A DNA stretch of 64,000 nucleotides from Balneola sp. (GTDB taxonomy: Bacteria; Bacteroidota; Rhodothermia; Balneolales; Balneolaceae). This document shows positions 6,137 to 64,000 of this stretch, in pieces; positions within the stretch are counted from its first letter, which is position 1; every line of letters begins with the position of its first letter. A model generated the notes under the pieces. It ran no database searches and had not been told where the DNA came from. It worked only from the letters and a program-made list of their open reading frames with translations. A program made the translations under genes and the position numbers. The stretch is taken from positions 186,001 through 250,000 of the forward strand of contig NZQV01000010.1 of assembly GCA_002696035.1 (NCBI GenBank). Reading direction: 5' to 3'.

Positions 6137-6156
6137 TAATGTAAAACCACTTTCGA

Positions 6157-6191
6157 GCCTCGTACACCATTAAGTTGTACGAGGCTTTTTT
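6157..6191 (+). terminator. Rho-independent terminator abutting the trmH start codon
   Basis: A perfect 10-bp stem, GCCTCGTACA paired with TGTACGAGGC, encloses a 9-base loop and is followed by six T residues (6186-6191). It closes the response-regulator transcript. The trmH start codon at 6197 is only five bases after the T run, which leaves no room for a separate promoter or ribosome-binding site. Confidence 0.85.
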
Positions 6192-6196
6192 ATTTT

Positions 6197-6877
6197 ATGG
6201 ATCCACAAATTAGACAAGATCTGATAACCTACCTGCGTGAATTCTCAACAGAGTCGCGTTGGGAGCGAATTCAGGAAATAGTACAGAAGCGAACCCGTCA
6301 TCTTACCGTGGTGGTGGAGGATATCTACCAGCCTCACAATGCCAGCGCTGTTCTTAGAAGTTGTGATGGCTTTGGTATTCAGGATGTGCATATCATCGAG
6401 AATAAAAATGAATTTGAGCCCTCCAGCCAGGTTACCATTGGGGCTGATCAGTGGTTAACTATACACCGTTACAATCAACCCAAAGTGGACAACACTGAGC
6501 TCTGCTTCAATACGCTGAAAGAACAGGGCTATAAGGTCATTGCCACTACTCCACACAAGGAAGATACCAACCTGAATGCGCTCGATATTTCAGGGAAAAC
6601 AGCATTGGTTTTTGGTTCAGAGATCGATGGCATCAGCGATAGGGCCATGGAATTAGCCGATGGCTTTATGAAGATCCCTATGTTTGGGTTTAGTGAAAGT
6701 TTCAACATCTCGGTAAGTGCAGCTGTGTGTTTGTATAATCTTACGCGACGTCTTCGTACTTCAGAAATTCCCTGGCCTCTTGACACCGAAGAGATGGAAG
6801 AACTAAAACTGAAATGGCTGCGCCAGTCTATCCGGGCCGGAGAAGAGCTTGAAAAAGCTTTTTTTGAAGGTAATTAG
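6197..6877 (+). CDS. trmH: tRNA (guanosine-2'-O-)-methyltransferase, SpoU/TrmH family
   Basis: The 226-residue protein carries the three SPOUT knot motifs. These are HNASAVLRSCDGFG near residue 48, ALVFGSEIDGIS near residue 135, and the terminal knot IPMFGFSESFNISVSAA near residues 156-172. The family transfers a methyl group from S-adenosylmethionine to a ribose 2'-OH, typically G18 of tRNA. The helical N-terminal extension and total length fit TrmH rather than the longer rRNA enzymes such as RlmB. The ATG at 6197 is the only reasonable start, because the next methionine lies beyond motif 1. A strong terminator ends five bases upstream, so expression may depend on read-through. It converges with the M28 peptidase gene, 20 bases away. 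Confidence 0.85.
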   Translation: MDPQIRQDLITYLREFSTESRWERIQEIVQKRTRHLTVVVEDIYQPHNASAVLRSCDGFGIQDVHIIENKNEFEPSSQVTIGADQWLTIHRYNQPKVDNTELCFNTLKEQGYKVIATTPHKEDTNLNALDISGKTALVFGSEIDGISDRAMELADGFMKIPMFGFSESFNISVSAAVCLYNLTRRLRTSEIPWPLDTEEMEELKLKWLRQSIRAGEELEKAFFEGN

Positions 6878-6897
6878 GTAATAATAGAATCCATTCT

Positions 6898-8271: not shown

Positions 8272-8336
8272 AGTAGCCGGAGCTTAGTTGATCTTGAAGT
8301 TCCACAAAGAAAGGGAAAAGCCCGGATTGATTCCAT

Positions 8337-8360
8337 AAAAAAGCCACCTAAATTGGTGGC
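8337..8360 (-). terminator. Rho-independent terminator downstream of the M23 peptidase
   Basis: Read on the minus strand, a 6-bp perfect stem (GCCACC with GGTGGC) and a 6-base loop are followed by six T residues. It lies ten bases after the stop codon of the M23 peptidase gene and upstream of the M28 gene, so the two peptidases are probably separate transcription units. Confidence 0.75.
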
Positions 8361-8369
8361 TTGAAAAGC

Positions 8370-9344
8370 TTAGTCGAGTGCGTTTTGGTTTGTTTCCGAG
8401 ATCTCTTTGAAAAGTGCATACTCTTCAGGCGAGGTATTGGCAAACAGGTAATATAGTGGATCTACCGGCTGCCCTTTATAGTGAACTTCATAATGAAGGT
8501 GAGGCCCTTCCGATAATCCTGAATCTCCGGCCATGGCAATTTGCTGCCCTCGGGTGACACGAGTTCCTTTTTTAATGCCTTTTGCGAACCCTGAAAGGTG
8601 AGCATACATGGTTTCGTAGCCATGTCCATGATCTAATATAACAACCAGACCGAGCGTACTTTGCCGTCCGGCGAATTTAACGACTGCATCTCCGGTAGAA
8701 AGGACTTCATCTCCAACATCAGCACGAAAATCTAATCCGTTATGTGGACGAGGATATCCCAGAATAGGGTGGTTTCTCATTCCAAAACCGCTCAACAAAA
8801 TACCTGATGTTGGCTTGATGGCAGGTATGTTGCTCATCCTTTCTTTGTTATTATTATACTGGTGTTTGATCTCTTCAAAACTCAATTTCTGAATCCCGAT
8901 CTTACGTTCCAGGTTATCGATCTTGGATGCAGTCCACTTCAATAGTTCGGAGGTGGATTCACTATACACATCAAATTCTCTGTAAGGGTCAGTGCCTCCA
9001 ATACCGGCCTGACGTTCATCATAGGAAAGCTTTTCCATGCCAAGTACTGAACGATAGAGTTCATTGTCTTTTTGGGCAATTTCATCGATCTGAGAATCTA
9101 AAGAAACGAGAGAGCTTTGGGTTTCTTCAAGCTGAGCTGAGAGTGCTTCATTTTCAGCTTTCAGGGCAAGCTCAGCCGGTGTTCCAATATAAGTAGAGAG
9201 TAGTATGATCCCGATCCCTGTAAGTACGACTCCGGATAAGATCCAGATAGAGAGATTATAAACTACTTGCTCTACACGGTTGTACTCAATAGGTACAAAA
9301 TCGCACTTTGATTCGTCGTAGTAATAGTGATTCTTTATAGACAT
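8370..9344 (-). CDS. Membrane-anchored M23 (LytM-type) peptidase
   Basis: The 324-residue protein has a short cytoplasmic N terminus, one transmembrane helix (about residues 31-52) and a coiled-coil stretch (about 60-100). The C-terminal M23 domain spans about 185-300. The zinc ligands of this family are visible in PHNGLDFRADVG (His and Asp) and GPHLHYEVH (HxH), with the conserved HGHGYETMYAHL between them. These enzymes cut peptide cross-bridges of peptidoglycan and often act in cell division or elongation. The coiled coil suggests regulation by a partner. The catalytic residues are intact, so it should be an active hydrolase rather than an activator. Confidence 0.88.
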   Translation of the reverse strand: MSIKNHYYYDESKCDFVPIEYNRVEQVVYNLSIWILSGVVLTGIGIILLSTYIGTPAELALKAENEALSAQLEETQSSLVSLDSQIDEIAQKDNELYRSVLGMEKLSYDERQAGIGGTDPYREFDVYSESTSELLKWTASKIDNLERKIGIQKLSFEEIKHQYNNNKERMSNIPAIKPTSGILLSGFGMRNHPILGYPRPHNGLDFRADVGDEVLSTGDAVVKFAGRQSTLGLVVILDHGHGYETMYAHLSGFAKGIKKGTRVTRGQQIAMAGDSGLSEGPHLHYEVHYKGQPVDPLYYLFANTSPEEYALFKEISETNQNALD

Positions 9345-9429
9345 ATACTAGCTTGATTCGAAAAACTTGTTAAAGATAGGAAGCTGAGCTTCACATTCAA
9401 AGAGTAGCGAGAAACTCTAATGTTACAAA

Positions 9430-10461
9430 TTATTCGATATCGCCTTCAAAATATTCGATGGCTCGCCTTGGTGTCATTTCCCGGCCTTTCGTTTTTACGC
9501 CAATACTCGACTTTATCCGTTCCTGAAAAGCTTTGGCAGGATCGTACCCATAATGCTTAAGTAGATAATTCATTGCAATGACCTCGGCAATTACGGTAAT
9601 ATTTTTTCCCGGGGTGATGGGTAAGTGGATGAGGGGAATATCAAGCCCTAAAATGTTTACCGAATCGTTGTTGAGTCCGGTACGTTCAACGTCTCGCGTT
9701 TCATCCCATAAAGTAAGTTCAAGGACCACTTCCATACGCTTTTGATAACGAATTGAGCGAATCCCGAACATGGACATCACATCAACAATGCCAAGCCCGC
9801 GTATTTCCATGAAATGTTTACTCATTTCGGTGGCAGAGGACATCAATACATTGTTCTTTTTGGTGAGCATGACCACATCATCGGCTACCAGGCGGTGGCC
9901 GCGTTCTACAAGGTCGAGGGCTACTTCACTTTTCCCGATCCCGGATTTCCCGGCAACTAAGATCCCAATTCCATATACATCCACCATAGAACCATGCACC
10001 ATGGTCTGAATGGCAAACTGATCTTCCATGAAATCCCGCAGAACATACATAAAACGGGTAGTTTCGAGTGGGGTAGAGTAGATGGGGATCCCGGCTTCTT
10101 TGGCTATCGTAAGCAAATATTCGGGCAATTTATTGTTGTCGGTTAAAAAAATAACCGGAAGTTCGAACTGGGTGATATTCCGGAAGGCTTCTTTCTGTTT
10201 ATCTTCACCCATATGGTCAAGAAACTGAGTTTCAGTATTCCCGATGATCTGAATTCGTTGATGGGTAAAAAGTTCGATATAGCCTGCAAGGGCCAATCCC
10301 GGTCGGTGCAGATCAGCTTCAACCACATGACGGTCGCCACTGCAGTTTTGAGCCACACACGATTCAATTTTGATATTCACTCGTTCCCTTAGTTTATCAA
10401 CCAGGTATTCAACGGTGATCTTTTCTTTTCTGGGGATTGGCTCCTGAGGCGAAAATGGCAT
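9430..10461 (-). CDS. hprK: HPr kinase/phosphorylase
   Basis: This 343-residue protein has the N-terminal HprK domain and a catalytic domain with Walker A GKSGIGKS (residues 171-178). The preceding VHGSMVDVYGIG includes the conserved His156, and VADDVV and the signature EIRGLGIVDV follow. The loop PITPGKN corresponds to the family's PxxPGRN segment. HprK phosphorylates and dephosphorylates a serine of HPr using ATP or pyrophosphate. No PTS gene is in the window, so its substrate here may be an HPr-like regulator of carbon or nitrogen status. The gene starts 18 bases after hpf, which probably makes xerC-hpf-hprK one transcript. Confidence 0.92.
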   Translation of the reverse strand: MPFSPQEPIPRKEKITVEYLVDKLRERVNIKIESCVAQNCSGDRHVVEADLHRPGLALAGYIELFTHQRIQIIGNTETQFLDHMGEDKQKEAFRNITQFELPVIFLTDNNKLPEYLLTIAKEAGIPIYSTPLETTRFMYVLRDFMEDQFAIQTMVHGSMVDVYGIGILVAGKSGIGKSEVALDLVERGHRLVADDVVMLTKKNNVLMSSATEMSKHFMEIRGLGIVDVMSMFGIRSIRYQKRMEVVLELTLWDETRDVERTGLNNDSVNILGLDIPLIHLPITPGKNITVIAEVIAMNYLLKHYGYDPAKAFQERIKSSIGVKTKGREMTPRRAIEYFEGDIE

Positions 10462-10479
10462 TCTTTTTTTTATTAGAGA

Positions 10480-10779
10480 TTAATTAGTTGCGTGCATTTT
10501 TTCTTTATAACGCTTCAGCTGACGGCTAATAATGTCAATGGCGTTATGGATAGCTTGCTCATACGAAGTGCCCGCTTCTTTAACTGTGAGTACTTTACGG
10601 GGTACTTTTACGATCAGTTCAGCTTGTTGCGGAGCATCATCGTCGGGAACAGGTTCTAGAATTATATCACACATTACGATTCGGTCATAGAATTGCTCGA
10701 GTTTCTCTACACTGTCTCTGCAATATTGCTGAAGGTCTGCGCTTGCTTCAAAATGGCGTGCTGTGAATGTAGTTTTCAT
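10480..10779 (-). CDS. hpf: Ribosome hibernation-promoting factor, short form
   Basis: The 99-residue product has the beta-alpha-beta-beta-beta-alpha pattern of HPF/YfiA, from KTTFTARHFEAS through the second helix ISRQLKRYKEK. It lacks the C-terminal extension of long HPF. Such factors bind the decoding region of the 30S subunit and promote inactive dimers in stationary phase. The start codon is preceded by an exceptionally good Shine-Dalgarno site for this genome, which implies high translation. It lies between xerC (44 bases upstream) and hprK (18 bases downstream). The hpf-hprK pair is also known from proteobacterial rpoN clusters, although rpoN is 44 kb away here. Confidence 0.9.
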   Translation of the reverse strand: MKTTFTARHFEASADLQQYCRDSVEKLEQFYDRIVMCDIILEPVPDDDAPQQAELIVKVPRKVLTVKEAGTSYEQAIHNAIDIISRQLKRYKEKMHATN

Positions 10780-10786
10780 TATGATA

Positions 10787-10792
10787 CTCCTT
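10787..10792 (-). promoter_or_regulatory. Strong Shine-Dalgarno site of hpf
   Basis: On the minus strand AAGGAG lies seven bases before the hpf ATG at 10779. Most genes in this window have no recognisable Shine-Dalgarno sequence, so this one stands out. Confidence 0.8.
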
Positions 10793-10823
10793 AATAGTTA
10801 GGGTTTATGTAATGATAAATTAA

Positions 10824-11741
10824 TTATGTTTTTGCTCTGGGATGGGCTTGCTCGTACACGTTCTTCAGCCTCTCGATGCTGGTATGCGTGTATACCTGCG
10901 TTGCCGCAAGGTTGGCATGGCCCAGGAATTCTTTGATCACCCGGATGTCGGCTCCGTTGTCCAGCATATGTGTTGCAAAACTGTGCCGTAGTACATGCGG
11001 GCTTTTCTGAGTAACCTCACTGGTTTGCTTTAAATATTTCTTCACGATGCGTTGCACGGCTTTATCATAGATCCGTTGTCCGTTTTCTGCAAGAAAAAGA
11101 GACTGCTTGGCATCACGGTCGGTTCTGTTTCCATATAATTCTGATCTCCTTGCCATAAAATCCTTCAGGATAGTTACAACGGTTTTACCCAATGGAATAA
11201 TTCGCTGCTTATTTCCTTTTCCATGTACGCTAACCTGATTTTGCCTGAGATTTATATCGGTCTTATTCAACCCGGTAAGCTCACTGAGCCGCATCCCGGT
11301 TCCATAAAACAACTCAAGGATGGCCCGGTTTTGAAGACCCCGCGTTGTCTGTATATCCACAGCATCCATCATACGTTCAATGTCTTCTTTGGTAGCCGTT
11401 TTCGGTAGCGACTGATCTGTTTTGGGTACCACTAATAAGTGTGCCGGGTTTTTATCTATGTATCCTCGTTTAAAGCAGTATTTAAAAAAAGAACGAAGTG
11501 CAGCTACTTTTCGTGCGATGGAGCTTTTTGCCAATCCCTGTTCAGAGAGGTCACCCAGCCACAGTCGAATAGATAATCTGGAGATCAGGGTAACATCAAT
11601 ATTTTCCGGATCTTCCTGTTCTGTTTGTGCCGTAAAACTGAGAAACGACGAAAGGTCGTTTTTATATGACGTGATAGTATGCTTAGAAGCATTGCGTTCC
11701 ACAGACAAATATTTCAGGTATTTTTCGATCAATGCTTTCAT
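10824..11741 (-). CDS. xerC: Tyrosine recombinase XerC/XerD
   Basis: The 305-residue protein has an N-terminal SAM-like DNA-binding domain (residues 1-95) and a C-terminal catalytic domain with the full tyrosine-recombinase set. This comprises Arg in GTGMRLSELTG, Lys in HGKGNKQR, HxxR in HVLRHSF, His in LGHANL and the nucleophilic Tyr in TQVYTH. Length and order fit XerC/XerD, which resolve chromosome dimers at dif. I chose the ATG at 11741 because the usual N terminus (MKALIEKYLKYLSVERNAS) begins there; the frame is open 39 bases further. No dif site was recognised. It is the likely first gene of the xerC-hpf-hprK group. Confidence 0.88.
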   Translation of the reverse strand: MKALIEKYLKYLSVERNASKHTITSYKNDLSSFLSFTAQTEQEDPENIDVTLISRLSIRLWLGDLSEQGLAKSSIARKVAALRSFFKYCFKRGYIDKNPAHLLVVPKTDQSLPKTATKEDIERMMDAVDIQTTRGLQNRAILELFYGTGMRLSELTGLNKTDINLRQNQVSVHGKGNKQRIIPLGKTVVTILKDFMARRSELYGNRTDRDAKQSLFLAENGQRIYDKAVQRIVKKYLKQTSEVTQKSPHVLRHSFATHMLDNGADIRVIKEFLGHANLAATQVYTHTSIERLKNVYEQAHPRAKT

Positions 11742-11808
11742 TGCCCAAATATGTCTATCAATACGCAGAAAAGAAAACAAATAATGCTGAAAGGGAGATG
11801 AATTTTAT

Positions 11809-12960
11809 TTAGACATCCCGACCTTTCCATGTGGCTTTTTTACCGGTATAATGATCCCATACACAGCGAATTCCGAGAACCTCATACCATAGAATAGTTA
11901 CAGGTTGGAGCAGGCTGATGAAAGGGTTCCATTTGAACTTGAGATCCAAAAGCCAGCGCTGCATTAAGAAAATGGCGATGAGAATTCCAGCTATCATTTT
12001 TTCTTGGGGTGAACCGATTGCAAGTGCCACAAAGGGAATCACAAAAACGATGATCTGCATAGCGGCCATAAAAAGAAAGAGGGGGAGGTTGCGCCCAAAA
12101 CCGACAAAGAAATTCTTTCTCAGCCCCTCGAACAGTTCGTGGTGATTGTGATACATCCGGCAGTTTACGGTATCCACTCCGTCGTACATGGTCAGGGTAA
12201 GTCCGTTTATTTTTATTTGCCGGGCCAGTTCCACATCCTCAACAATTTCTTGCCGCACCGAAGCGTGTCCTCCGATCGTATCATAAGCTTCGCGATTGAA
12301 TGCAATAAACTGACCACAGGCCGCAGCAAAAGCAGGAGCAAATTTCTGCCGGAGTGACCTGGGTAACCAAAAGGGATGTTGCGCTACATACTTGGCCGGC
12401 AGCAATGTATACAGACCAAGGTATATCATGGGAATGATCATCTTTTCCCAAAAGGTAACTACGCGTTGTTTGGGCCATACAGTTATAGTATCTGATTGTC
12501 TTAAACTGTTGACAGCCTTTGCAATAGCTTCTTCTTCCAGCCAGACATCAGCATCTATGAAAACAAGAAACTCACCTTTGGCGTGTTCACTCAGCTGATG
12601 GCAGGCCCAGGGCTTCCCCAGCCAGTCGCCGGGTTTTTCTTTACCTGAAATGGTATGTACATTATGAATGATCTCTGACAGATCTTTTAAGATTTCCGTA
12701 GTCTTGTCAGTGGAATTATCATCCAGAACCAAAACTTCAAAATTGGGGTATGTTTGTTTCAGGGCCGATGTAACACAGCGTTCAATTACGGCTTCTTCGT
12801 TTCTGGCGGGTATGCAAATACTTACCAATGGCATCGCTTCTTCAGTGGTACTCACAGATGGTTTTTGATGCCGCAACGAACGAAATTCTAACCAGTTACG
12901 GATGAACACAAAAAGCGTGAACAGTATGTAGGAAGTGGCAATGTATAGTAATAGGTCCAT
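11809..12960 (-). CDS. GT2 glycosyltransferase, possible carotenoid glycosyltransferase (CruC-like)
   Basis: The product has 383 residues, with an N-terminal membrane helix (3-22) and a GT-A domain. The domain begins with VSICIPARNEE and contains the nucleotide-sugar site VLDDNSTD, the DAD-type metal motif FIDADVW, and a later EDVELARQI acid region. Two to three C-terminal membrane helices follow (about 290-365). This layout is shared by membrane GT2 enzymes acting on lipids or carotenoids. The neighbours are a CrtC-like hydratase, divergently transcribed 54 bases away, and an acyltransferase. In Chlorobium the equivalent trio CrtC, CruC and CruD makes acylated carotenoid glucosides. I therefore infer a carotenoid acceptor; the sequence alone does not prove it. 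Confidence 0.72.
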   Translation of the reverse strand: MDLLLYIATSYILFTLFVFIRNWLEFRSLRHQKPSVSTTEEAMPLVSICIPARNEEAVIERCVTSALKQTYPNFEVLVLDDNSTDKTTEILKDLSEIIHNVHTISGKEKPGDWLGKPWACHQLSEHAKGEFLVFIDADVWLEEEAIAKAVNSLRQSDTITVWPKQRVVTFWEKMIIPMIYLGLYTLLPAKYVAQHPFWLPRSLRQKFAPAFAAACGQFIAFNREAYDTIGGHASVRQEIVEDVELARQIKINGLTLTMYDGVDTVNCRMYHNHHELFEGLRKNFFVGFGRNLPLFLFMAAMQIIVFVIPFVALAIGSPQEKMIAGILIAIFLMQRWLLDLKFKWNPFISLLQPVTILWYEVLGIRCVWDHYTGKKATWKGRDV

Positions 12961-13014
12961 CGAACGAATACGAATGCGTTAGGCGTTGCCTACCAAAAGG
13001 CTAACTTATTTTTC

Positions 13015-14079
13015 ATGAATATAACAACAGATTTTAAACACAGTTCACCGTCAAAGAGTTTATCTGAGGGAGGCTATGAATGGTGGTATTTTGATGGCCA
13101 AAGCAGGGAGGGTGACTTCCATTTTGTGATCATATTTTATAAGTCTAATCCATTTTCTACCAAATATATAGAGAATTTAACTGATGGTATTGTTGATGTT
13201 CTGCATCCTGCCATAAGCGTATCTGTTTACCATAAAGGAAAACCGGTGTACTATAGTTTCCTGGAATTTGGAGAGCCTGACTTTAGCTGGGATGAGCAGG
13301 AAATGGAGCTTAAAGTTGGCGGAGATCTGTTTAACTACCGGCCCAAAGAGAACAAGTTGTTGATCAATATTGAGCTGGATCAAAAACTAGCATCGGGACA
13401 TGGTATTCAGGGCACGCTAAAGGGAGAAGGGCGCTGGTCAAATCCCCGGTTAATTCATTCCGAGAGCAATGACCGTCATGCCTGGAATCTTCTTTTACCA
13501 CACATGGACTGGGAAGTTGATCTTGCTGTGGAAGGGAAGAAGGGAAGTCAGAATATAAATTTTTTGGGCATTGGGTATCATGATCACAATACGGGACAAG
13601 AACCCATGAAGGAAAGTTTCCGGGATTGGTATTGGGGGCGCTATCATTTTAAGGATTTTACGCTGGTCTATTATCTGATGCAAAAGCATGGCGAGGAACA
13701 GATGGAGGCGTGGCTCATCGATCAGAATAATAAAACGGTGTTGGAGTATTTAACCGATTCAGAATTGTCTGATTTTGGGAGAAATTTATTTGGGTTGAGA
13801 TCGGCACGTAAAATTGAGCTAAAATCAAATCAAGCTACTGTAAATATTCAATATAGAAATAAGATTGATGATGGTCCTTTTTACCAGCGATTTATTGGTG
13901 ATTCAATAATTAAGTATAAAGACCAAGTATTTGCAGCTCATGGAGTTTCAGAGTATATATATCCCAAAAATATCTATAATGAAATGTTTTGGCCATTAGT
14001 CCACATGCGCTTGAGGTTCATGAAAAAGAAGCCACACTGGGTTCAAAAGTCGCCTTTAATGTATCCATGGACGTGGTAG
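13015..14079 (+). CDS. CrtC-like carotenoid 1,2-hydratase (lipocalin-type)
   Basis: The 354-residue protein shows hallmarks of the CrtC family: an EWWYFDG motif near residue 22, GIGYHDHNTG near residue 185, and DWYWGRYHF near residue 203. CrtC adds water to the psi-end double bond of acyclic carotenoid ends, giving a tertiary hydroxyl that can later be glycosylated. No signal peptide is seen. It lies between a GT2 glycosyltransferase (divergent, 54-base gap holding both promoters) and a PlsC-type acyltransferase (convergent, 14 bases). This neighbourhood supports a role in tailoring a carotenoid to an acyl glycoside. Broader CrtC-domain proteins with other roles exist, so function is probable rather than certain. 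Confidence 0.75.
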   Translation: MNITTDFKHSSPSKSLSEGGYEWWYFDGQSREGDFHFVIIFYKSNPFSTKYIENLTDGIVDVLHPAISVSVYHKGKPVYYSFLEFGEPDFSWDEQEMELKVGGDLFNYRPKENKLLINIELDQKLASGHGIQGTLKGEGRWSNPRLIHSESNDRHAWNLLLPHMDWEVDLAVEGKKGSQNINFLGIGYHDHNTGQEPMKESFRDWYWGRYHFKDFTLVYYLMQKHGEEQMEAWLIDQNNKTVLEYLTDSELSDFGRNLFGLRSARKIELKSNQATVNIQYRNKIDDGPFYQRFIGDSIIKYKDQVFAAHGVSEYIYPKNIYNEMFWPLVHMRLRFMKKKPHWVQKSPLMYPWTW

Positions 14080-54930: not shown

Positions 54931-56439
54931 ATGCTACGTAACCAACAAAATTTAAATCAAAAACAGCAGCAGAGTTTACAGCAAAAACTCTCACCCCAAC
55001 AGCTTCAGTATATCAAATTACTGCAGCTGCCTACCATTGGTCTGGAGCAACGGATCAAAGAAGAGATAGAAGCGAATCCTGTGCTGGAGGAAGTGGATCC
55101 GGGAGAGTATGAAACCGTTAGTCTTTCCGAGGTTGAAGAAGAGCCAAAAGAAGAAAAGGAAGAAGCCCTCGAAAGCCTGGAAGAGCACGAAGTAGACTGG
55201 GATGAATTTGATAACAATACCGAATATGACGGTGAGCAATTTGGTAACTCATATAATCCCGATATTGAAGAGTGGAAGGAGCTGCCAAACCCATATCAGG
55301 CTTCTTTTTTGGAGGAGTTGGAAGAACAGGTAAGCCTGCTGGATCTGTCTGACGAGGAAATTCTTATTGCCGAACAAATTCTGGGTTCCCTGGATGAAGA
55401 CGGTTATTTCCGCCGCGAACTTGAAGCCGTTGTAGATAATATTGCCTTTAATCAGGGCGTGTTAGTGGATGAGGAAAAGGTGGAAAAAGTTCGAAAAGAA
55501 ATACAACAGCTTGAGCCGATCGGCGTGGCTTCGCGTGATCTTCAGGATTGTTTGCTGGTTCAGCTGGAAGCTTCCGAAAAAGACCTTCCCCGTTTAGACC
55601 TTGCTAAGAAGATTGTTCGTGATGAATGGAAGGCCTTCGAGAAAAAACATTTTTCTAAACTTCTGAAAAAATTCAATGTAGATCGTGAAGAATTGAATGA
55701 GGCTTTTGATGCTATCAAGCAGATGGACCCCCGGCCGGGTTCTGTATCAAGCGGACTGGAGGAAACACAAAATTATATAGAGCCTGATTTTGAAGTGTAC
55801 TGGAAAGGAACCGGAGAAGGAGAAAGTGAACGCGGTGAATTCGTGATCAACTTGAATCAGCGGAATGCGCCTTCCCTGCGCATTTCTCCTGAGTACAAAC
55901 AGATGTGGGAGGAGATCAAAGCCAAAAAGGATAAAAAGGCCAATAACGATGCCAAGAATTTCATGAAGAGTAAGATCGATTCAGCCAGCTGGTTTATTGA
56001 GTCGATCCGTCAGCGCCAGAATACGTTGATGAACATCATGAAAACGATCGTGGCGCTGCAGGAAGATTTCTTCAAGTATGGCGAGGGACTCAGGCCCATG
56101 ATCCTCAAAGATGTAGCGGAACGCATTGGAATGGATATATCAACCGTTTCGCGAGTGGTGAATGGCAAGTATGTACAAACTCATTTTGGGGTGTACGAAT
56201 TAAAATATTTCTTCAATGAAGGGCTGGAAACCGAAAGCGGGGAAGAGGTATCAAATCGGGAAGTAAAGAACATCCTACAAAATCTTATCGACAAGGAAGA
56301 CAAACAAAAGCCTTACAGCGATCAACAGCTCACCGATATGCTGAATGAGAAAGGATATAAAGTGGCTCGCCGAACCGTAAGCAAATACCGGGAACAGCTC
56401 AATCAACCCGTGGCAAGGATGCGCAAGCAGGTTATTTGA
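54931..56439 (+). CDS. rpoN: RNA polymerase sigma-54 factor
   Basis: The 502-residue protein has the Gln-rich region I (QQQSLQQKLSPQQLQYIKLL) needed for response to AAA+ activators and an acidic region II. It also has the core-binding domain and the DNA-binding part, with MDISTVSRVVNGKYVQTHFG (helix-turn-helix). The diagnostic RpoN box ARRTVSKYREQL lies near the C terminus (about residue 484). It directs transcription from -24/-12 promoters with enhancer-binding activators. No activator gene is in the window. Its stop lies two bases from the stop of the convergent MotB-like gene. Confidence 0.95.
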   Translation: MLRNQQNLNQKQQQSLQQKLSPQQLQYIKLLQLPTIGLEQRIKEEIEANPVLEEVDPGEYETVSLSEVEEEPKEEKEEALESLEEHEVDWDEFDNNTEYDGEQFGNSYNPDIEEWKELPNPYQASFLEELEEQVSLLDLSDEEILIAEQILGSLDEDGYFRRELEAVVDNIAFNQGVLVDEEKVEKVRKEIQQLEPIGVASRDLQDCLLVQLEASEKDLPRLDLAKKIVRDEWKAFEKKHFSKLLKKFNVDREELNEAFDAIKQMDPRPGSVSSGLEETQNYIEPDFEVYWKGTGEGESERGEFVINLNQRNAPSLRISPEYKQMWEEIKAKKDKKANNDAKNFMKSKIDSASWFIESIRQRQNTLMNIMKTIVALQEDFFKYGEGLRPMILKDVAERIGMDISTVSRVVNGKYVQTHFGVYELKYFFNEGLETESGEEVSNREVKNILQNLIDKEDKQKPYSDQQLTDMLNEKGYKVARRTVSKYREQLNQPVARMRKQVI

Positions 56440-56441
56440 AA

Positions 56442-57956
56442 TTATCCCGGAAGTTCTAAAAGATAGAGAACCGGTTTCAGATCATAGCTGGTATAGGAAA
56501 GATCGGAATAGAGTTGCTGAATGTGATCCCAATTTCCTGTTTTATATGAGGTCAGGGCAAAATCACCGTTTTCAAGCTGTTTTATGGATGTGGAAATAGC
56601 CATCAGCGTTGAGATCTTTTTGGCAAGGTCTTTTGCGTCTGTTTCATCATCAAATAAAGCCAACTGAACCTGGAATTCAAATTGATAGGGTGAGCTATTC
56701 AGATCAGCAAAACCGATAAAGTTCTTACTGCCCAGTTCTTCGGATAAGACATCAGCTTGCTCCAAGGTCTCCTTTAAACTGCTTCCGGGCTTAGAAACCA
56801 CCCTGTAAAGTCCGCTAGATGTATTAATGATATCTGTGGTTATGTTGAACCGTTCCTGCAGTGAGGAGGCAAGTGAGCCTGCATTTTGCTGGCTGCCAAA
56901 AGCACCCAGTTGAATTTGAAATTCTACAGGCTCCGGTCGGTTTGCAGAATTGTTATAGCATTGGTGAATGAGTCCCAAATTTGATGCTCCCGATCGGTTT
57001 GAAAGCGCGCTGTGATGGGATAGCGTTGCAGGTAAGTTATTATTTGGTGCCGTACGGACTGAAAACAACCGGCCGTTGTAGGTAATATTGAAATCCAGGT
57101 CTGAATTTCTGGTTGCAACTTTAGCTCTGTTCAAAGCATTTGAAAAAGATTCAAAACCACCAAGTTGTACAGAAAACCGGCAATTCGTATCGATAGTCGC
57201 TATTGTTTCATTATCTGTATTGGTACTAGTTTCGGATTCATTGTTAGCCAGGGCTTCGGAGGTATCATAAAATAGACGCAGGGTAACCCGGCGGTTCTTA
57301 GCTCTGTTTTCGGGGATAGGATTCCCGGCCGCATCCACATTGGGGACAAGAGGGCGGGAGTCGGCATATCCGGAGGCTTTCAATCGTTCTTTGCTAATTC
57401 CCATTCCGCTGAGATATTTGACAAGATTGGTAGCACGTGCGGTAGAAAGCTCCCAGTTGGAGTCGTATGCCGGAGAATGAATGGGAACATCATCGGTGTG
57501 GCCTTCCACTTCAATGTTGAAATCGGTATAGGCATTGTTTTGGATAGCTTCAACGATCTCGTTGAGTAAACCCAGTGATTCGGAATTTATAGTGGCGCTT
57601 CCTGAAAGATATAATTCATCACTCTTTAGGCGGATCAAAAGGTCATTGAGGTCTCTTTCGATCTCAATTTTGTTATCACCAACCTCATCAAGAAGTGCAA
57701 TTTCTAACTGCCGCTCAATTTTATTGATGGGGGTGGAGATGTACTCGGCCTCTTCTGCATCAGATTTGAACAATCCGGAAACCGAGAAAACATCCCGGTC
57801 AGAAAAATGAGAAATGGAGAGTAAAATGATAAGGAATCCGAGTAAAATGGTGATAATATCTAAGTAGCTGATCTGCCAGCTATCCTCTTCAACCTCTTCA
57901 AGGTCTTGCTCGGGGTACATCGAATTGTTGGTATCGATATGCGGGTCTTTGCTCAC
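56442..57956 (-). CDS. MotB-like stator protein with OmpA domain and three SPOR-like repeats
   Basis: The 504-residue protein has one N-terminal membrane helix, SYLDIITILLGFLIILLSIS, in which Asp33 matches the proton-conducting Asp of MotB (Asp32 in E. coli). A periplasmic linker and an OmpA/MotB peptidoglycan-binding domain follow (about residues 115-235, with IEVEGHTDDVP, STARATNLVKYL and NRAKNRRVTLRL). Three SPOR-like units come next (about 258-340, 345-415 and 428-500): FSVQLGGFESFSNAL, FQIQLGAFGSQQNAG and FQVQLALFDDETDAK. SPOR domains bind denuded glycan strands. MotB normally ends after the OmpA domain, so this tail is unusual. It starts with GTG, 13 bases after the MotA-like gene. Confidence 0.83.
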   Translation of the reverse strand: MSKDPHIDTNNSMYPEQDLEEVEEDSWQISYLDIITILLGFLIILLSISHFSDRDVFSVSGLFKSDAEEAEYISTPINKIERQLEIALLDEVGDNKIEIERDLNDLLIRLKSDELYLSGSATINSESLGLLNEIVEAIQNNAYTDFNIEVEGHTDDVPIHSPAYDSNWELSTARATNLVKYLSGMGISKERLKASGYADSRPLVPNVDAAGNPIPENRAKNRRVTLRLFYDTSEALANNESETSTNTDNETIATIDTNCRFSVQLGGFESFSNALNRAKVATRNSDLDFNITYNGRLFSVRTAPNNNLPATLSHHSALSNRSGASNLGLIHQCYNNSANRPEPVEFQIQLGAFGSQQNAGSLASSLQERFNITTDIINTSSGLYRVVSKPGSSLKETLEQADVLSEELGSKNFIGFADLNSSPYQFEFQVQLALFDDETDAKDLAKKISTLMAISTSIKQLENGDFALTSYKTGNWDHIQQLYSDLSYTSYDLKPVLYLLELPG

Positions 57957-57969
57957 CTAACGTCCTTCT

Positions 57970-58764
57970 TTATAATAGTTTGTTTCTCTTAATGTGGGCC
58001 TGAAGTTTATCATAAATTTGAAGCGCCGTTTTTTCCTGCTCTATCAACAGAATGCCTTCCAGAATGAGTTTTTCTCTGAAGAAACGGGAGGAAGCAATGT
58101 CATTCATTTTACGGGACATAGGGTTGAAAATAAAATTCCCGATGATGATACCGTATAATGTAGTCATAAGGGCTGCGGCCAGTCCCGATAGCAAAGTTTC
58201 TATCTCATCAAAACCGGAGAGGATGACGATCAATCCAAACAGGGTTCCAAGCATCCCGAAAACAGGAGCAGATTTACCCATACTTGCTATGATATCATTG
58301 ATCTTTTTTTGGCGATGATAACTTTCCTGGATGTTGGCTTCTCCGAGTTCACGAAGTTCCTGGGTCGAATAGTTGGTATCAAGGATGGAAAACAGATATC
58401 CGGCAAATTCATTCTCGTATTCCTGGCTCAGCTCATTTATAGTGCCCATTCGGTCTTTTTTGATCTCCTTTTGCCATTGAATGACGGTGTCCACATCATC
58501 AGCTAACTGCTCATCATTGATCGAACTGTATGAAAATAGACGAAGGCTATCTCGCAGGGCACTTACCACGCTTCGGAATTCATAACTGATGAAAACGCTG
58601 GCAAAAATTCCTCCAAAAACGATAGCTAAACTTGGAACATTCAGGAAGTTGATCGATTCAGGAATTATATTGTAGCTGCTTACCCCTGTAACCAGTAATG
58701 CTCCCCAGATCATTATCACCAACGAAATCAGAAAACAAAGAATATTTAAGATATTACTACGCAT
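57970..58764 (-). CDS. MotA-like stator protein
   Basis: The 264-residue protein has four membrane helices (about residues 7-27, 43-62, 165-185 and 192-214). A cytoplasmic loop of about 100 residues lies between helices 2 and 3, with YSTQELRELGEANIQESYHR, the position of the rotor-contacting charges in MotA. SAPVFGMLGTLFGLIVIL and LAAALMTTLYGIIIGNFIFN carry Pro167 and Pro215, matching Pro173 and Pro222 of E. coli MotA. MotA and MotB form the ion channel that drives flagellar rotation. This fits MotA better than TolQ or ExbB because of the loop and the MotB-type partner 13 bases downstream. Confidence 0.8.
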   Translation of the reverse strand: MRSNILNILCFLISLVIMIWGALLVTGVSSYNIIPESINFLNVPSLAIVFGGIFASVFISYEFRSVVSALRDSLRLFSYSSINDEQLADDVDTVIQWQKEIKKDRMGTINELSQEYENEFAGYLFSILDTNYSTQELRELGEANIQESYHRQKKINDIIASMGKSAPVFGMLGTLFGLIVILSGFDEIETLLSGLAAALMTTLYGIIIGNFIFNPMSRKMNDIASSRFFREKLILEGILLIEQEKTALQIYDKLQAHIKRNKLL

Positions 58765-58770
58765 GTACCA

Positions 58771-59316
58771 CTAATTTCCCGCATTATAATTTTCACTGAT
58801 CAATCCTTCTTGCTTCAATTGTCTTACCAAATAAGGGATGTTTGGAATAGGGACATTCTCGTCCATCTCCAGGGCCAAACGCCATTGTTCAGTAAATTTT
58901 TCCTGATTGCCAAGACCTAAATAGATAGATCCTCTAAGTGCCAGAATATCGGCTGTTTCCTTGATATCTGCTGCTTTATTAATATGATATAATGCACTTT
59001 GGTATCTCCCCATATAAAAGAATCGTTGGGCCGATATGTAATAAGTAGTGAGCCCATTTGCCCGCCCCTGATATTGTTCAGTCAGTTCTTTTTTGTACTC
59101 TGCTTTAAGCTCTTCTCGTCGCTGTTGTGCTTCAATTTGTTCTTGAGTGAGTTGTGTTGAATCGGCTTGAACAGAATCGGCCTGAGCTTCCGTAATTTCT
59201 GAATCATCGATATCAAGTGTATTTGATGAACCACAGCCAAAGGTATGAAACCCCAAAAAGGCTATCAGAATAAATAGCATTGCCCTTGATATGTTATATA
59301 CAGATTTAATAATCAC
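58771..59316 (-). CDS. TPR-type lipoprotein of the motor-like operon
   Basis: The 181-residue product has a lipoprotein signal with FGCGSS (Cys28), an acidic/Gln-rich linker (about 35-75) and a compact tetratricopeptide-like domain (about 90-175). The domain reads YYISAQRFFYMGRYQSAL, then ALRGSIYLGLGNQEK, then IPNIPYLVRQL. The same pattern, including AQ-x-x-FY, ETA, AL-x-GS-x-YL and IPN-x-x-YL, recurs at the C terminus of the usher-like protein encoded upstream, so the two domains are homologous. It probably sits in the outer or inner membrane facing the periplasm. The start is GTG, and the MotA-like gene follows after six bases. Confidence 0.72.
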   Translation of the reverse strand: MIIKSVYNISRAMLFILIAFLGFHTFGCGSSNTLDIDDSEITEAQADSVQADSTQLTQEQIEAQQRREELKAEYKKELTEQYQGRANGLTTYYISAQRFFYMGRYQSALYHINKAADIKETADILALRGSIYLGLGNQEKFTEQWRLALEMDENVPIPNIPYLVRQLKQEGLISENYNAGN

Positions 59317-59355
59317 CTACTGAACTACTTTTTAAGAAACCTAAAACCAATGAGT

Positions 59356-61239
59356 CTATGCAATTTCACGAATAGCCTTCATTATCTGAAGTTTTGCCTG
59401 TTCGCTTTTCTCATCTTTTATGTACTCCATTTGTTGAAGTTCCATCCGAATCAATCTTTGTTCCCTTTTTGGCCGCACTGAAAGAAGTTTATTGGTAATA
59501 GATTCGCTTAGATCTGAAACTGCTTCCAGTAAAACTTCCGTAGAGATAGGGGCGAGGGCCTCTTTAAGCATAAGGTCGTTCAACCGGGGAATTTGTTCTA
59601 AGGTGATGAATTTATTTGCTATTACATCAGCAACCGGAGAACCTGTGGCTTTGAGCTGTTCGATGTATTTATTTTGATCTTCAAGAGGAAGCTGATCAAG
59701 GATCCGGAGGATATTTTTTGCTCCTTGCTTGAGCTCTTTATCAACTTCAAGAATATCCATGGCCTTTGAGAACAGGCGGGATGAAATTTCTTTGTGGTCA
59801 TTATAGGATAGTTCATGCAGGTTAGACATTCCTATCATGATCTCCGTAACCCGGCTTTTGTCTAACCAGTCTATAACGCGAGCCGTTTTTTGCTCGGGTA
59901 AATAATCAAATAGCAGAGCACATGTGTTGCGATCCTCACCATAAAGTAGCTGTTTGATATGATGAGCATCAAGATGGTCCAGAAACTGGAACAACCCTAA
60001 CTGTTGATGTTTAAGGTTGGGATCATGGGAATGCAGATCCTGCTCTAAGGCATTCACAAACTCGGAAGCTATTTTTTTCTTCTGACTTAAAGAAAGATCT
60101 CCAGTCTTATCTAATTGCACTTTAATAGCTGAGTAGGATTCTGAACTTAAGTCTCTTTTAAGAGCTTTCAGAAGGTGAGAATCGATGGTTTTAACCGATC
60201 TAGCAGCTTTTTTGGCACCTTCATTCTCATCTTCTTCCATCCAGAATTCAAACAGTAATGCCACTTCTTTGGAGTTATTCAGGAACTGATCTGTGATGGT
60301 AGCAAAGTCTGATGAAGTTGCCGGCTTAGGCTTCTCAGGTGCAGCGATATTTTTCTCCCAACTCGGATTGTTTTGTTTGAAAGCAGGAAGATCGTCTTGG
60401 TGCCGGTTTTGCTTAAGTTCATCCCGGGTAAAATGAGGATGCTCTGATCTATCTTTCGATTTCTTCTGTGAAGGGGAATTTGTTAACCGTCCCACCAAAA
60501 GGGTTAATCCCAATAGCATGAGCAAAACAAAACCGGGTACATAATCTTTAATGGATCCAAGTATGGTTTCTTCAGATGCCAAACTTTCTTCAGCTCTGGC
60601 TGGCGGAAGTTCATCAATACCAAAATCAGGCATGTTCAGGAGTCGCACATTTACAACATCACCTCTTGACTCACTGATCTTGGCTGCAATTCCAGCCATT
60701 AAACGCATAAATTCAACTTGCTCGGGGGTGAAGGAGGAATCGGCATACACATTTACGCGAAGTCCTAATATTTGGAGTCGCTTTACCGTTTGTTCATTGA
60801 TTACAGTTTGGGTGGTTTGACTGCTGCTTCCCTGGATCTCTCTGGGTCGCATGTTTTCCTCCGGGATGAAGGGCAGACCCGGCATTAATACATTTTCCGG
60901 CTGATTTTGCTGACCACCAAGGATCGTTTGATTTTCCGTGGTTCGGTAGGTTTCATCAACAAACTGCGCATCGATACTGATATCAACAAAAAACTTACGG
61001 CTGTCGAAATAGTTGGAAAGCACATTGAGTACCTGGGCATCAAACTGCTGTTCGAGTGTTATCACCTTAAGCTCCAGTGATTCCGCTTCATTGATTTGAG
61101 CTGAGGCCGAGGTGGCAGATAGAAGAAAAAGCAGTGAAAAGGTTAAAAAGAATATACATCGGTGGCAAAATGTAGCTATGGTATCACAATATGCTCTAAC
61201 TACTGATGCGCCTGTGGATGTATAAGTCATAAAATTCAT
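59356..61239 (-). CDS. FliF-FliG-like fusion: ring and rotor domains in one membrane protein
   Basis: The 627-residue protein has a signal or membrane segment (28-48) and a periplasmic domain (about 60-205). Its FVDISIDAQFVDETYRT, LGLRVNVYADSSFTPEQVE and RGDVVNVRLLNMP resemble the C-terminal periplasmic region of FliF. A second helix (about 233-252) and a cytoplasmic part follow. Residues 415-490 (LLYGEDRNTCALLFDYLP) resemble the FliG middle domain, and 545-627 the FliG C-terminal torque domain. Aligned by eye to E. coli FliG, Arg281, Asp289 and Arg297 correspond to Arg592, Glu600 and Lys608; Asp288 corresponds to Met599. The start overlaps the usher-like stop (ATGA). Confidence 0.7.
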   Translation of the reverse strand: MNFMTYTSTGASVVRAYCDTIATFCHRCIFFLTFSLLFLLSATSASAQINEAESLELKVITLEQQFDAQVLNVLSNYFDSRKFFVDISIDAQFVDETYRTTENQTILGGQQNQPENVLMPGLPFIPEENMRPREIQGSSSQTTQTVINEQTVKRLQILGLRVNVYADSSFTPEQVEFMRLMAGIAAKISESRGDVVNVRLLNMPDFGIDELPPARAEESLASEETILGSIKDYVPGFVLLMLLGLTLLVGRLTNSPSQKKSKDRSEHPHFTRDELKQNRHQDDLPAFKQNNPSWEKNIAAPEKPKPATSSDFATITDQFLNNSKEVALLFEFWMEEDENEGAKKAARSVKTIDSHLLKALKRDLSSESYSAIKVQLDKTGDLSLSQKKKIASEFVNALEQDLHSHDPNLKHQQLGLFQFLDHLDAHHIKQLLYGEDRNTCALLFDYLPEQKTARVIDWLDKSRVTEIMIGMSNLHELSYNDHKEISSRLFSKAMDILEVDKELKQGAKNILRILDQLPLEDQNKYIEQLKATGSPVADVIANKFITLEQIPRLNDLMLKEALAPISTEVLLEAVSDLSESITNKLLSVRPKREQRLIRMELQQMEYIKDEKSEQAKLQIMKAIREIA

Positions 61240-64000
61240 TTGGGTGAATTTAGGGGTTCCGAAACAATCATTTGGTCTAAGTACTCTTCGTTAGGAATGT
61301 AAATATCCGGATCGTACTTTTTAGCCAGGTTCCAATACTTTCGGGCATTTTCTTTATCATTTCTCAGATAGCTTAAGCTTCCTTTCAGGGCATAAGCTTG
61401 TGCCGTTTCAAAGATATCAAGTGATTGGTCTACAAGATCCATTGCGCGGCTGATATTTTTATTATAGAAGGCATTTTGAGCCTCTATGATCAACCGCAGC
61501 ACATCATTAACACCTTCACTGAGTTCTGTTTCTAAAGCCAACATTTCTTCATCTGTTTTTATGGACGAGGGGATAGCTTCCATCGTAATCGGGGAGACTT
61601 CTTCTTCCGGTTCTTCATAATCTAAAGGAACCAGTAACAAAGAAAGACCTTCAACGAAATCACCTTCCGGAACAGCCTTAACTTCAAATTCAAGCTTCTC
61701 AGGAATTGATTTTGAGTTTAGCTGCTGAAGGTTTCCTGCGTCCACCTGTAACTCGTAAGTACCCGGTGGAACTTCCCATTCATAAAAACTTCCGTCACTG
61801 AATGTTCTTAATTCTTTAGCAAAATCTCCGTTAGAATCTGATAATCTTAGTTTTAATCCCCCAATACCAGTTTTACTGCTATCGCCTCGTAAACGCTGTA
61901 CAGTTCCGTCGATCACACCCGACATATAGAAGGGTATTTCCACCTTCTTAAAGCGGTTAGGATCGGTAATAAGGCCAAATTTCTCGAATTCAGGAACAAG
62001 CATGGGGTTTTTAATGGCGCTTTTATTCATCTCCATGTTGTAATAGTAGTAGGGCTGCATTTGGGTAAGATATAGAACTCCATTCTTTAAAGTACTATTT
62101 GCACCCGAGCGTAAGACCCTTACCGCTTTCTCTTCAATAATTTCATCTTCCTCATCAAATGCGCCATTTACGTTACTATCTACATATAATTGAATGGCAG
62201 TAGCGGCTCTTCCTACCTGATCTCTGTTTGTAAAGATGAAGTTGTTGTAATTAGGGTCATATCCCACAGACCCTCTGATATTTTGGGTTACATTACTACT
62301 ACCTCTAATGCTGTTAAAAGTAGTACTACTTCGGACTTTACTGCCCAAGTCAAATATCAGACTAAATCTAAGGGTATTGAAATTACCTATAAAGTTTTTA
62401 CCTGCTGAAAGCTGTAAACGGCCAGTCTTTAAAATATTTTTTGAGATCAATACTTCAGCAGTCTCAAACTGTTTACTTGTGGGGCGATATCCCATAGCGG
62501 CTCTAAGAAATACTCCCCGCAGAAAGGATGGTAAATACCTGTTTCTTGAAAAATTATATGTCAAAGAAGATTGAATAGTTGATGTCGATGACATATCCAA
62601 AGGATTGAAGGTATCAACTAATCGATCCCTGTAGCCTATGCGAAGATTTATATTACTAATTCGTGTGTTTACATCTGTTCTGAATGTTGTGACTGTGGTG
62701 GATGCTCTGAATCTTGAAAAACCAGAAACCCTAATGTTAAAAGGTACACCAAAGAAATTGAACGGATAAAATGCACTGGCAACTACGCGTTGGTCATCAT
62801 TAGTATTGTTATAGATGGAAGAAGAGGAGATGAAATTGGTATAGTCAAAATTTATACTGGCAGAATTAGGGTAAATGACATTTAAGTTTCCTCGATAGTA
62901 AACATTGTTTGCTGCTTCTAAGGTTACGATATAGTTATTTAAGATCCTTGAAGAGAGTGAAGAAGTAAATGTTGGAAGTGATGTATGATACCCTTGATAA
63001 TATTCAACTCCAGTTTTAGCTGTAAGCCAATCGGTAATACCATAGGAGCCATGTGCCTGAGCAGTATATTTTTGGCTTGTTTCTCCAATTACAGCATTAT
63101 CTAAACGTCCGGCATTAGCACTATAATTAAATTTACCTTTAGGCTGGAATGTAAATGGAACTTGTATACGCTCAGATCGTTGTATGATTTGTCCAGTAGG
63201 TCCATAAATTCTTAGATCAAGTTGCGTTGAACCATAAGTTATGGGTGCTAAAAACCGATAATTACCAAGTTCATTTGCAGTTGCAAAATCTATTAAAGAA
63301 TTATTTAAATATAACTCTACTTCCGATTGAGGAATAGTACTTCCCTGAATTTCATACTCATCAAAAAGCCGTCTGGGTTCAATGGGTTCGTTAGAAATGC
63401 GAATCCCTGTGTATCTGTTCTGGGTGAAACCGTCTGTGGTGGTTTGCCCGATTTGAAGTTTAGTTAACCATTCCTGATCGCGAAACATATATCGCCATCT
63501 TAGATTGTTAGTGGCAAGGTTGCTAAATCCATCAGAATAATTACCAAAAACTTGTCCCTGAAGATCCCCACCGTAAACCTGTAATCCTAAATTGGCGTTG
63601 TAATTAAAACCGTAATTATTCTGATTAAGATTAGCTGATAAGTTATAATCAAAAAAACCACCATCTATAAAAGGCTTTTCTCTGTCGTAGCGTAGCTCGT
63701 ACTTTTGGTCTTGAAACCTGTTTGTATTGGCTAATTGCCTTCTTTGACTGCGAATAGCCTGCTGAATAGCCGGCAATTCTCTTTCTGTAACTAATTTAAG
63801 CGAGAGATTATTGAAATCAATAGAAAAATCAAGATCAAATACTTCGTAAAAAAGATCAGATCTAAGGTAAGAATCTAATTCCTTTATCAGATAATCATTG
63901 GGGGTAAGGGTAGTGGTCTGATCCCCGAATTTTATGATATTTTTTTTAAAATCAATTGTATACGGAGTCTGTTCTACACCAAAATCACCACTAATTATCA
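61236..64000 (-). CDS. Usher-like outer-membrane barrel with C-terminal TPR domain (N terminus outside window)
   Basis: The frame is open to the window edge, so over 915 residues are visible and the N terminus is missing. The visible part starts with a periplasmic domain (ISGDFGVEQTPYTIDF). A large barrel follows, with an usher-type plug segment: VELYLNNSLIDFATANELG and LDLRIYGPTGQIIQ, like the FimD/CS1 sequences that follow YxNG and precede the second half-barrel. After about residue 610 a carboxypeptidase-regulatory-like domain (LKLRLSDSNGDFAKELRTFS) and a TPR-like domain (AQNAFYNKNISRAMDLVDQ) come last. Ushers export pilus subunits. Here the partner is a motor-like operon, so the role is open. 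The stop overlaps the FliF-FliG-like start. Confidence 0.7.
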   Translation of the reverse strand, partial: IISGDFGVEQTPYTIDFKKNIIKFGDQTTTLTPNDYLIKELDSYLRSDLFYEVFDLDFSIDFNNLSLKLVTERELPAIQQAIRSQRRQLANTNRFQDQKYELRYDREKPFIDGGFFDYNLSANLNQNNYGFNYNANLGLQVYGGDLQGQVFGNYSDGFSNLATNNLRWRYMFRDQEWLTKLQIGQTTTDGFTQNRYTGIRISNEPIEPRRLFDEYEIQGSTIPQSEVELYLNNSLIDFATANELGNYRFLAPITYGSTQLDLRIYGPTGQIIQRSERIQVPFTFQPKGKFNYSANAGRLDNAVIGETSQKYTAQAHGSYGITDWLTAKTGVEYYQGYHTSLPTFTSSLSSRILNNYIVTLEAANNVYYRGNLNVIYPNSASINFDYTNFISSSSIYNNTNDDQRVVASAFYPFNFFGVPFNIRVSGFSRFRASTTVTTFRTDVNTRISNINLRIGYRDRLVDTFNPLDMSSTSTIQSSLTYNFSRNRYLPSFLRGVFLRAAMGYRPTSKQFETAEVLISKNILKTGRLQLSAGKNFIGNFNTLRFSLIFDLGSKVRSSTTFNSIRGSSNVTQNIRGSVGYDPNYNNFIFTNRDQVGRAATAIQLYVDSNVNGAFDEEDEIIEEKAVRVLRSGANSTLKNGVLYLTQMQPYYYYNMEMNKSAIKNPMLVPEFEKFGLITDPNRFKKVEIPFYMSGVIDGTVQRLRGDSSKTGIGGLKLRLSDSNGDFAKELRTFSDGSFYEWEVPPGTYELQVDAGNLQQLNSKSIPEKLEFEVKAVPEGDFVEGLSLLLVPLDYEEPEEEVSPITMEAIPSSIKTDEEMLALETELSEGVNDVLRLIIEAQNAFYNKNISRAMDLVDQSLDIFETAQAYALKGSLSYLRNDKENARKYWNLAKKYDPDIYIPNEEYLDQMIVSEPLNSPK

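Follow-up and report, generated by a model that had tools for sequence, protein, structure and literature searches.

The window analysed here is a stretch of 64,000 nucleotides from Balneola sp. (contig NZQV01000010.1). On its minus strand lies an operon in which genes for flagellar-type rotor and stator proteins follow the gene of a predicted outer membrane (OM) usher. The first of them encodes a fusion of FliF-like and FliG-like parts, referred to here as FliFG, and its ATG overlaps the stop codon of the usher gene by 4 nt. The gaps between the genes for FliFG, a TPR lipoprotein, MotA and MotB are 39, 6 and 13 nt. The features of the locus are as follows.

61236..64000, minus strand: predicted usher, 1002 aa; the gene extends to about 64244, past the window, and the fold is taken from a 59%-identical orthologue
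61251..61574, minus strand: TPR tail at the usher C-terminus (residues 891-998), suggested motor adaptor
59356..61239, minus strand: FliFG, 627 aa, fusion of FliF RBM3/collar, transmembrane (TM) helix and FliG N-M-C; candidate rotor subunit
58771..59316, minus strand: TPR lipoprotein, 181 aa, GTG start; shares homology with the usher TPR tail
57970..58764, minus strand: MotA, 264 aa, flagellar-type stator A subunit
56442..57956, minus strand: MotB, 504 aa, GTG start; TM helix with Asp33, OmpA peptidoglycan-binding domain and SPOR tail
56445..57260, minus strand: MotB residues about 233-504, a SPOR tail with homology to the tails of motor-free ushers
56440..61640, minus strand: exchangeable motor cassette (approximate coordinates), comprising the usher TPR tail, FliFG, the TPR lipoprotein, MotA and MotB

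An open reading frame and translation check confirmed FliFG at 59356-61239 on the minus strand, with 627 aa and an ATG start. We divided the protein into the following segments.

61099..61239, minus strand: residues 1-47, hydrophobic N-terminal helix, probable signal peptide ending SASA|Q, as judged from the sequence
60628..61098, minus strand: residues 48-204, FliF RBM3 and collar hairpin, the periplasmic ring-building domain (6sd3_Q)
60481..60549, minus strand: residues 231-253, membrane helix (AlphaFold2 model and sequence)
60031..60315, minus strand: residues 309-403, FliG N-like helical domain (5tdy_B, 5tdy_D)
59359..59997, minus strand: residues 415-627, FliG M and C domains (Pfam, profile and structure matches)
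59437..59475, minus strand: residues 589-601, region of the torque helix, in which R589, R592 and E600 are invariant

These domain identities are established by sequence matches and by predicted structure. FliFG matched the Pfam families FliG_C (E 6.5e-11) and FliG_M (E 5.1e-6), both above the gathering score, and YscJ_FliF_C weakly (E 0.025). A profile built from 27 FliFG homologues aligned without gaps to the FliG of T. maritima (1lkv, E 3e-39) and also matched the FliG_N structure 5tdy_B (E 8.9e-5). The match to NCBIfam TIGR00207 reached 51.3 bits, below the equivalog cut-off of 226.7. The AlphaFold2 model of FliFG had a mean pLDDT of 68 and a pTM of 0.32, at which the individual domains can be trusted and their mutual arrangement cannot. 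In this model, residues 48-204 superimposed on the FliF RBM3/collar of 6sd3_Q (Z 13.2, rmsd 1.9, 102 aligned residues), and residues 340-627 on the whole FliG of 8wiw_3 (Z 15.5); FliG N-M-C as a whole was matched from about residue 336 to 627. The M and C domains gave Z 14-15 with solved FliG structures, and comparison with the MotAB-bound FliG_C of 8ucs_H gave Z 11.6 (rmsd 2.3). Residues 544-627, examined by themselves, were predicted to adopt the FliG_C fold (1qc7_B, Z 12.4, rmsd 2.3). The FliG N-like domain, which also matched 5tdy_D (rmsd 2.6), is assigned with moderate confidence.

A sequence-only reading of this DNA had described a two-helix membrane protein with a FliF-like periplasmic domain at one end, FliG-like middle and C-terminal domains at the other, and a FliF part shorter than normal and devoid of its first ring-building motifs. 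The structural matches bear out the assignment of both ends and add the N-like domain at about 309-403, which that reading had not listed. The short FliF part also agrees with the model, in which RBM1 and RBM2 are absent and about 185 residues with a single alpha-beta domain separate the signal helix from the TM helix; the flagellar FliF of the same genome has 546 aa. The two helices have to be revised. The second is clear as a TM helix, and the first resembles a signal peptide, so that the mature protein probably retains one TM helix after cleavage. FliFG is a natural FliF-FliG fusion, and its recurrence across many assemblies rules out an assembly artefact.

We surveyed 394 Bacteroidota genomes, in which full-length fusions scored at least 317 bits and flagellar FliG proteins at most 117 bits. 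Full-length fusions were found in 22 of the genomes, and carriers among the close relatives of the window's locus belong to Balneolaceae/Balneolales, including Balneola sp. EhC07. Four arrangements could be distinguished. Type A, to which the window belongs, has the cassette behind an usher (14 loci); type B has it with a predicted OM protein (11 loci); type C has it behind an usher in another family (2 loci, one cut by a contig end); and type D has another gene order and an OM protein related to that of type B (4 loci, one contig-cut). All four cassette genes were present at every locus that was not contig-cut. The OM proteins of types B and D are homologous to each other (hhalign E 3e-7), and neither type has an usher, indicating that the same motor can join another OM protein. 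The gene flhA was absent from 13 of the 18 fusion genomes tested, which argues that the cassette is not part of a flagellum. The window's own genome carries an ordinary flagellar cluster, in which FliF, FliG and MotAB are encoded separately, as well as a second motor copy of type B (26% identity) in the order FliFG, OM protein, TPR, MotA, MotB. This copy (L005, G000:C24:27000-46000, 8514-13564) is preceded by two T9SS-sorted proteins in which dockerin and cohesin domains occur. Genes upstream of type B were considered as conserved cargo and dismissed, as they differ by genome (RpoC, penicillin-binding protein, kinases, T9SS-sorted proteins). CsgG was likewise discarded as an identity for the type-B OM protein after that family gave no match. 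Type D (L059, L105, L106, L058) was seen in another family of the phylum as a five-gene module with a different gene order. In type C, the usher reading frame of L054 (2893-7494) has about 540 additional residues preceding the usher homology.

We then aligned FliFG to E. coli FliG. R281 corresponds to R592, D288 to M599, D289 to E600, R297 to K608 and K264 to S575, exactly the map that the sequence-only reading had drawn by eye for Arg592, Glu600, Lys608 and Met599 in place of Asp288. That reading took the charges of the torque helix to be partly retained. This holds for R592 and E600, which are invariant in the 27 homologues of types A to C and account for two of only 8 invariant columns among 245 in the FliG M-C region; R589, close to both, is invariant as well. 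It does not hold for K608. Within type A this position is occupied by H, S, T, P, K, Q, E or D, and the equivalent residue is Arg in only 6 of 11 flagellar FliG proteins of the phylum Bacteroidota; we therefore ruled it out as a conserved torque residue. Across types A to C the equivalents of K264, D288 and R297 are variable or lost, and at the 288 position the acid has given way to a hydrophobic residue or Ser. The four distant type-D fusions depart at the 592 and 600 equivalents, with K at 281, D/E at 288 and R/H at 289; in these loci the torque acid appears as though shifted by one place. The EHPQ motif for FliM binding was complete in none of 31 fusions, compared with 11 of 11 flagellar FliG proteins of the phylum.

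The stator genes are also of flagellar type. Against solved structures, the MotA family profile matched only flagellar MotA/PomA below E 1e-3, and the protein has the large cytoplasmic loop and the Pro and Thr residues of the pore. These pore residues and the ion-carrying membrane Asp of MotB are invariant. The charges of the MotA cytoplasmic loop match those of PomA only loosely; the proposed equivalence of R88/E96-E97 was dropped as support, since the base is mostly kept and the acid is shifted. MotB contains the OmpA peptidoglycan-binding domain (Pfam), and its SPOR tail in type A is collinear with the SPOR tail of ushers (BLASTP E 4e-16; Pfam).

The genes upstream of the type-A fusions encode small subunits of DUF4402 type, a protein resembling a chaperone and the large OM protein. 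The orthologue of the latter in Balneola EhC07, 59% identical to that of the window, has a predicted FimD/PapC fold (Foldseek E 3.4e-25, Z about 20), whereas porins gave Z of at most 14 against the same model. Pfam Usher matched 1 of 14 members (E 3e-4), and the profile of the family found no usher among PDB sequences, mostly weak TPR matches, so that the assignment depends on the predicted fold. On that fold, the OM protein behind the chaperone is an usher of the FimD/PapC type. The chaperone-like protein matched PapD_N in 1 of 13 members (weakly, E 6.7e-4), and its size and position fit a PapD-like chaperone; one subunit scored above the DUF4402 cut-off. The usher TPR tail is 35% identical to the type-B TPR lipoprotein and 29% to that of the window. 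It was present on all 16 motor-linked ushers and on one usher beside a FliF-like protein without FliG, and on none of 20 ushers lacking a FliF-like partner. Many motor-free ushers end instead in peptidoglycan-binding SPOR domains; of the two proteins, usher and MotB, one or the other bears the SPOR tail. Motor-free ushers of this family occur in the same genus, at the same locus and with the same downstream neighbors. The usher beside the FliG-less protein (L060, G112:C1:3615000-3632000, 5931-10966) accompanies a 343-aa FliF-like RBM3-TM protein and a TPR protein with an apparent SPOR-like tail; there is no MotAB at this locus, and the usher is divided between two frames of 160 and 825 aa. Two motor-free ushers, L129 (6086-10735) and L131 (6909-11228), have 1549 and 1439 aa, with long low-complexity-looking linkers from the barrel to the SPOR tail.

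The cassette is exchanged as a unit. Between a genome with the motor (G089) and one without (G187), the flanking DNA aligns at 74-79% on both sides, and 5.1 kb from the usher tail to the end of MotB in the former is replaced in the latter by 0.9 kb encoding a SPOR tail of the usher. Mapped onto the tree of usher bodies, the presence of the motor switches 8 times, and supported branches force 7 or more of these switches; the SPOR tails of MotB form one clade. Pairwise distances of FliFG, MotA, MotB, the TPR lipoprotein and the TPR tail of the usher show correlations of r 0.79-0.96 with one another (0.86-0.93 for the TPR tail with MotA, MotB and FliFG). Their correlations with the usher body and the chaperone are lower, 0.33-0.55, and the latter two reach 0.76 between themselves. 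This covariation and the exchange at the locus indicate that motor and usher adaptor travel together onto different usher operons. The count of TPR tails, 17 of 17 ushers with a FliF-like partner against 0 of 20 without, ignores relatedness; the honest strength of the association is given by a sign test on independent contrasts, in which motor and tail changed together in 6-7 of 7 (p 0.016-0.031).

On balance, these results lead us to think that FliFG probably serves as rotor subunit in a small rotary motor that is non-flagellar, driven by MotAB and integrated into a chaperone-usher pilus system. In favor of a motor we count the fold matches to FliF and FliG, the invariant R592 and E600 and the invariant stator residues; against it count the lost equivalents of D288, R297 and K264 and the loose match of the MotA loop charges to PomA. 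That the host has a flagellum with its own FliF, FliG and MotAB speaks for a motor outside the flagellum. Homology and the coupling of the motor to the usher are well supported; ring assembly, torque, the TPR contact and pilus rotation are what we infer. FliFG would form a ring through its FliF RBM3 in the periplasm, with the FliG domains in the cytoplasm. A MotA5MotB2 stator, anchored to peptidoglycan by the OmpA and SPOR domains of MotB, would push the torque helix of FliG_C (R592, E600) with ion flow. The TPR lipoprotein and the usher TPR tail would couple the turning ring to the usher in the OM, and usher and pilus would be turned or otherwise mechanically driven. In motor-free relatives the SPOR-tailed usher would be fixed to the wall, and the motor version carries this anchor on the stator, which is the arrangement that a rotating usher would need.

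More tentatively, we propose a rotating chaperone-usher pilus, in which a flagellar-type rotor and stator, without flagellum or export machine, turn the usher and its fiber and the cassette swaps with a wall-anchored, motor-free version; we regard this as quite possible rather than probable. The FimD/PapC fold of the usher, the linkage of its TPR tail, the either/or placement of SPOR and the covariation support coupling to the usher, and the symmetry mismatch of a ring with many members facing an usher that is single or paired counts against the mechanism. Types B and D pair the motor with another OM protein, so its output may be something other than a pilus. The same two types, together with the fact that the motor genes are joined to the usher itself, which bears the adaptor tail, are compatible with energized assembly or secretion, in which the motor would act on pilin export, extension or release at the usher by driving or gating it, as Ton and Tol motors do with their OM partners. 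However, motor-free relatives with the same usher, chaperone and subunits are common, so the motor is not generally needed for assembly, and a full FliF/FliG rotor exceeds what a push-pull motor needs. We consider this alternative unlikely, though it deserves serious weight.

Still less credible is a cassette that merely neighbors the usher and serves another OM target, the TPR tail being a by-product of insertion. The usher-free types and the exchange among loci would suit it, but the tail is conserved, covaries with the motor and is missing from all ushers without a FliF-like partner, and in the window the usher and FliFG genes overlap, stop with start. A scaffold or sensor with no net rotation, in which the usher would be held in place by the FliFG ring and MotAB and these would sense load or ion flow, would account for the partial retention of torque residues and for the extra wall-binding SPOR domains on MotB. 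It fits poorly with R592 and E600 standing among so few invariant columns and with invariant pore and ion-carrying residues, and we find it comparably improbable. Every motor part is of flagellar ancestry, as expected of a decayed flagellar remnant or accessory. Yet the genes remain intact and are conserved across genera, the fusion has lost the FliM site, most of the tested carriers lack flhA and the host has a separate, complete flagellar FliF-FliG-MotAB set; this explanation, by far the least probable, was rejected on its presence in flhA-less genomes.

In flagella, FliG and MotAB are surrounded by an export machine, rod, switch and filament. The present system shares with the flagellar MS-ring, C-ring and MotAB the FliF RBM3/collar, FliG N-M-C, R281, D289 (as E), the stator pore residues and the peptidoglycan-binding OmpA domain. 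It differs in that FliF and FliG are one chain, without RBM1/RBM2 or the FliM site; the cluster lacks genes for export apparatus, rod, hook and filament; MotB has a SPOR tail; and the operon includes an usher and a TPR lipoprotein. With classical chaperone-usher pili (FimD/PapC) it has in common the usher barrel fold, an upstream chaperone-like protein and small DUF4402-type subunits; here, however, the usher is TPR- or SPOR-tailed, motor genes stand in the operon, and the sequence is almost unrelated. AglRQS, GldLM/T9SS, TolQR, ExbBD and ZorAB are likewise ion-driven motors of MotA/ExbB type outside the flagellum, from which the present MotA is set apart by matching only flagellar structures. 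We know of no FliF/FliG rotor in any of them, and to our knowledge torque generation by FliG and MotAB is restricted to flagella.

A natural FliF-FliG fusion as such is not unprecedented. In Chlamydiaceae, a shortened FliF is fused to a FliG M-like part (about 330 aa); the hosts are thought to be non-flagellated, a link to the injectisome is possible, and the only flagellar genes given are those for FliF, FliL and FlhA (Bergeron 2016, PMC4768692). Unlike that fusion, the present one contains FliG N-M-C, torque helix included, and is accompanied by a dedicated MotAB and an usher. For Salmonella, engineered FliF-FliG fusions are reported to assemble and to show directionally biased rotation (PMC4768692), and those of Salmonella and Vibrio (8z4d; PMC11481574) have the same domain order but are man-made, flagellar and built with full-length FliF. 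A recent study of MotAB and its non-flagellar relatives makes no mention of FliF, pili or Bacteroidota groups in its main text (PMC12505986). In the open-access literature (preprints and subscription papers being outside this scope) we found no description of a FliF-FliG-MotAB motor outside the flagellum on an usher. Its novelty is thus likely, not certain, and lies in the system, since each part belongs to a known family and we found no known machine that combines them.

A compact motor of fused rotor and MotA/MotB stator among the pilus genes of marine Balneolaceae, some of them without a flagellum, suggests a motor-driven surface fiber. Here four genes make up the core rotor and stator, in non-flagellated bacteria and on another surface fiber or OM protein, which bears on whether rotor and stator can exist apart from the rest of the flagellum. 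As a minimal motor, it may help in probing what FliG and MotAB require for turning, and it shows how an envelope machine that already exists can gain or lose a motor. Within a single genus and at a single locus, versions with and without the motor form natural pairs, on which the idea that the motor drives the pilus can be tested directly.

Scans of the region for repeats, promoters and terminators gave nothing informative. Convergent with the operon, a sigma-54 (rpoN)-like gene (54931-56439, plus strand) ends 2 nt from the end of MotB; such a neighbor is also found beside motor-free usher loci in the genus. Past the window end (L004, G000:C14, 13761-16067), upstream of the DUF4402 subunits, three genes encode proteins with pilin-like hydrophobic N-termini (377, 199 and 182 aa). 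Relatives of these lie beside several type-A loci, and they are possibly minor pilins of a type IV pilus or type II secretion system.
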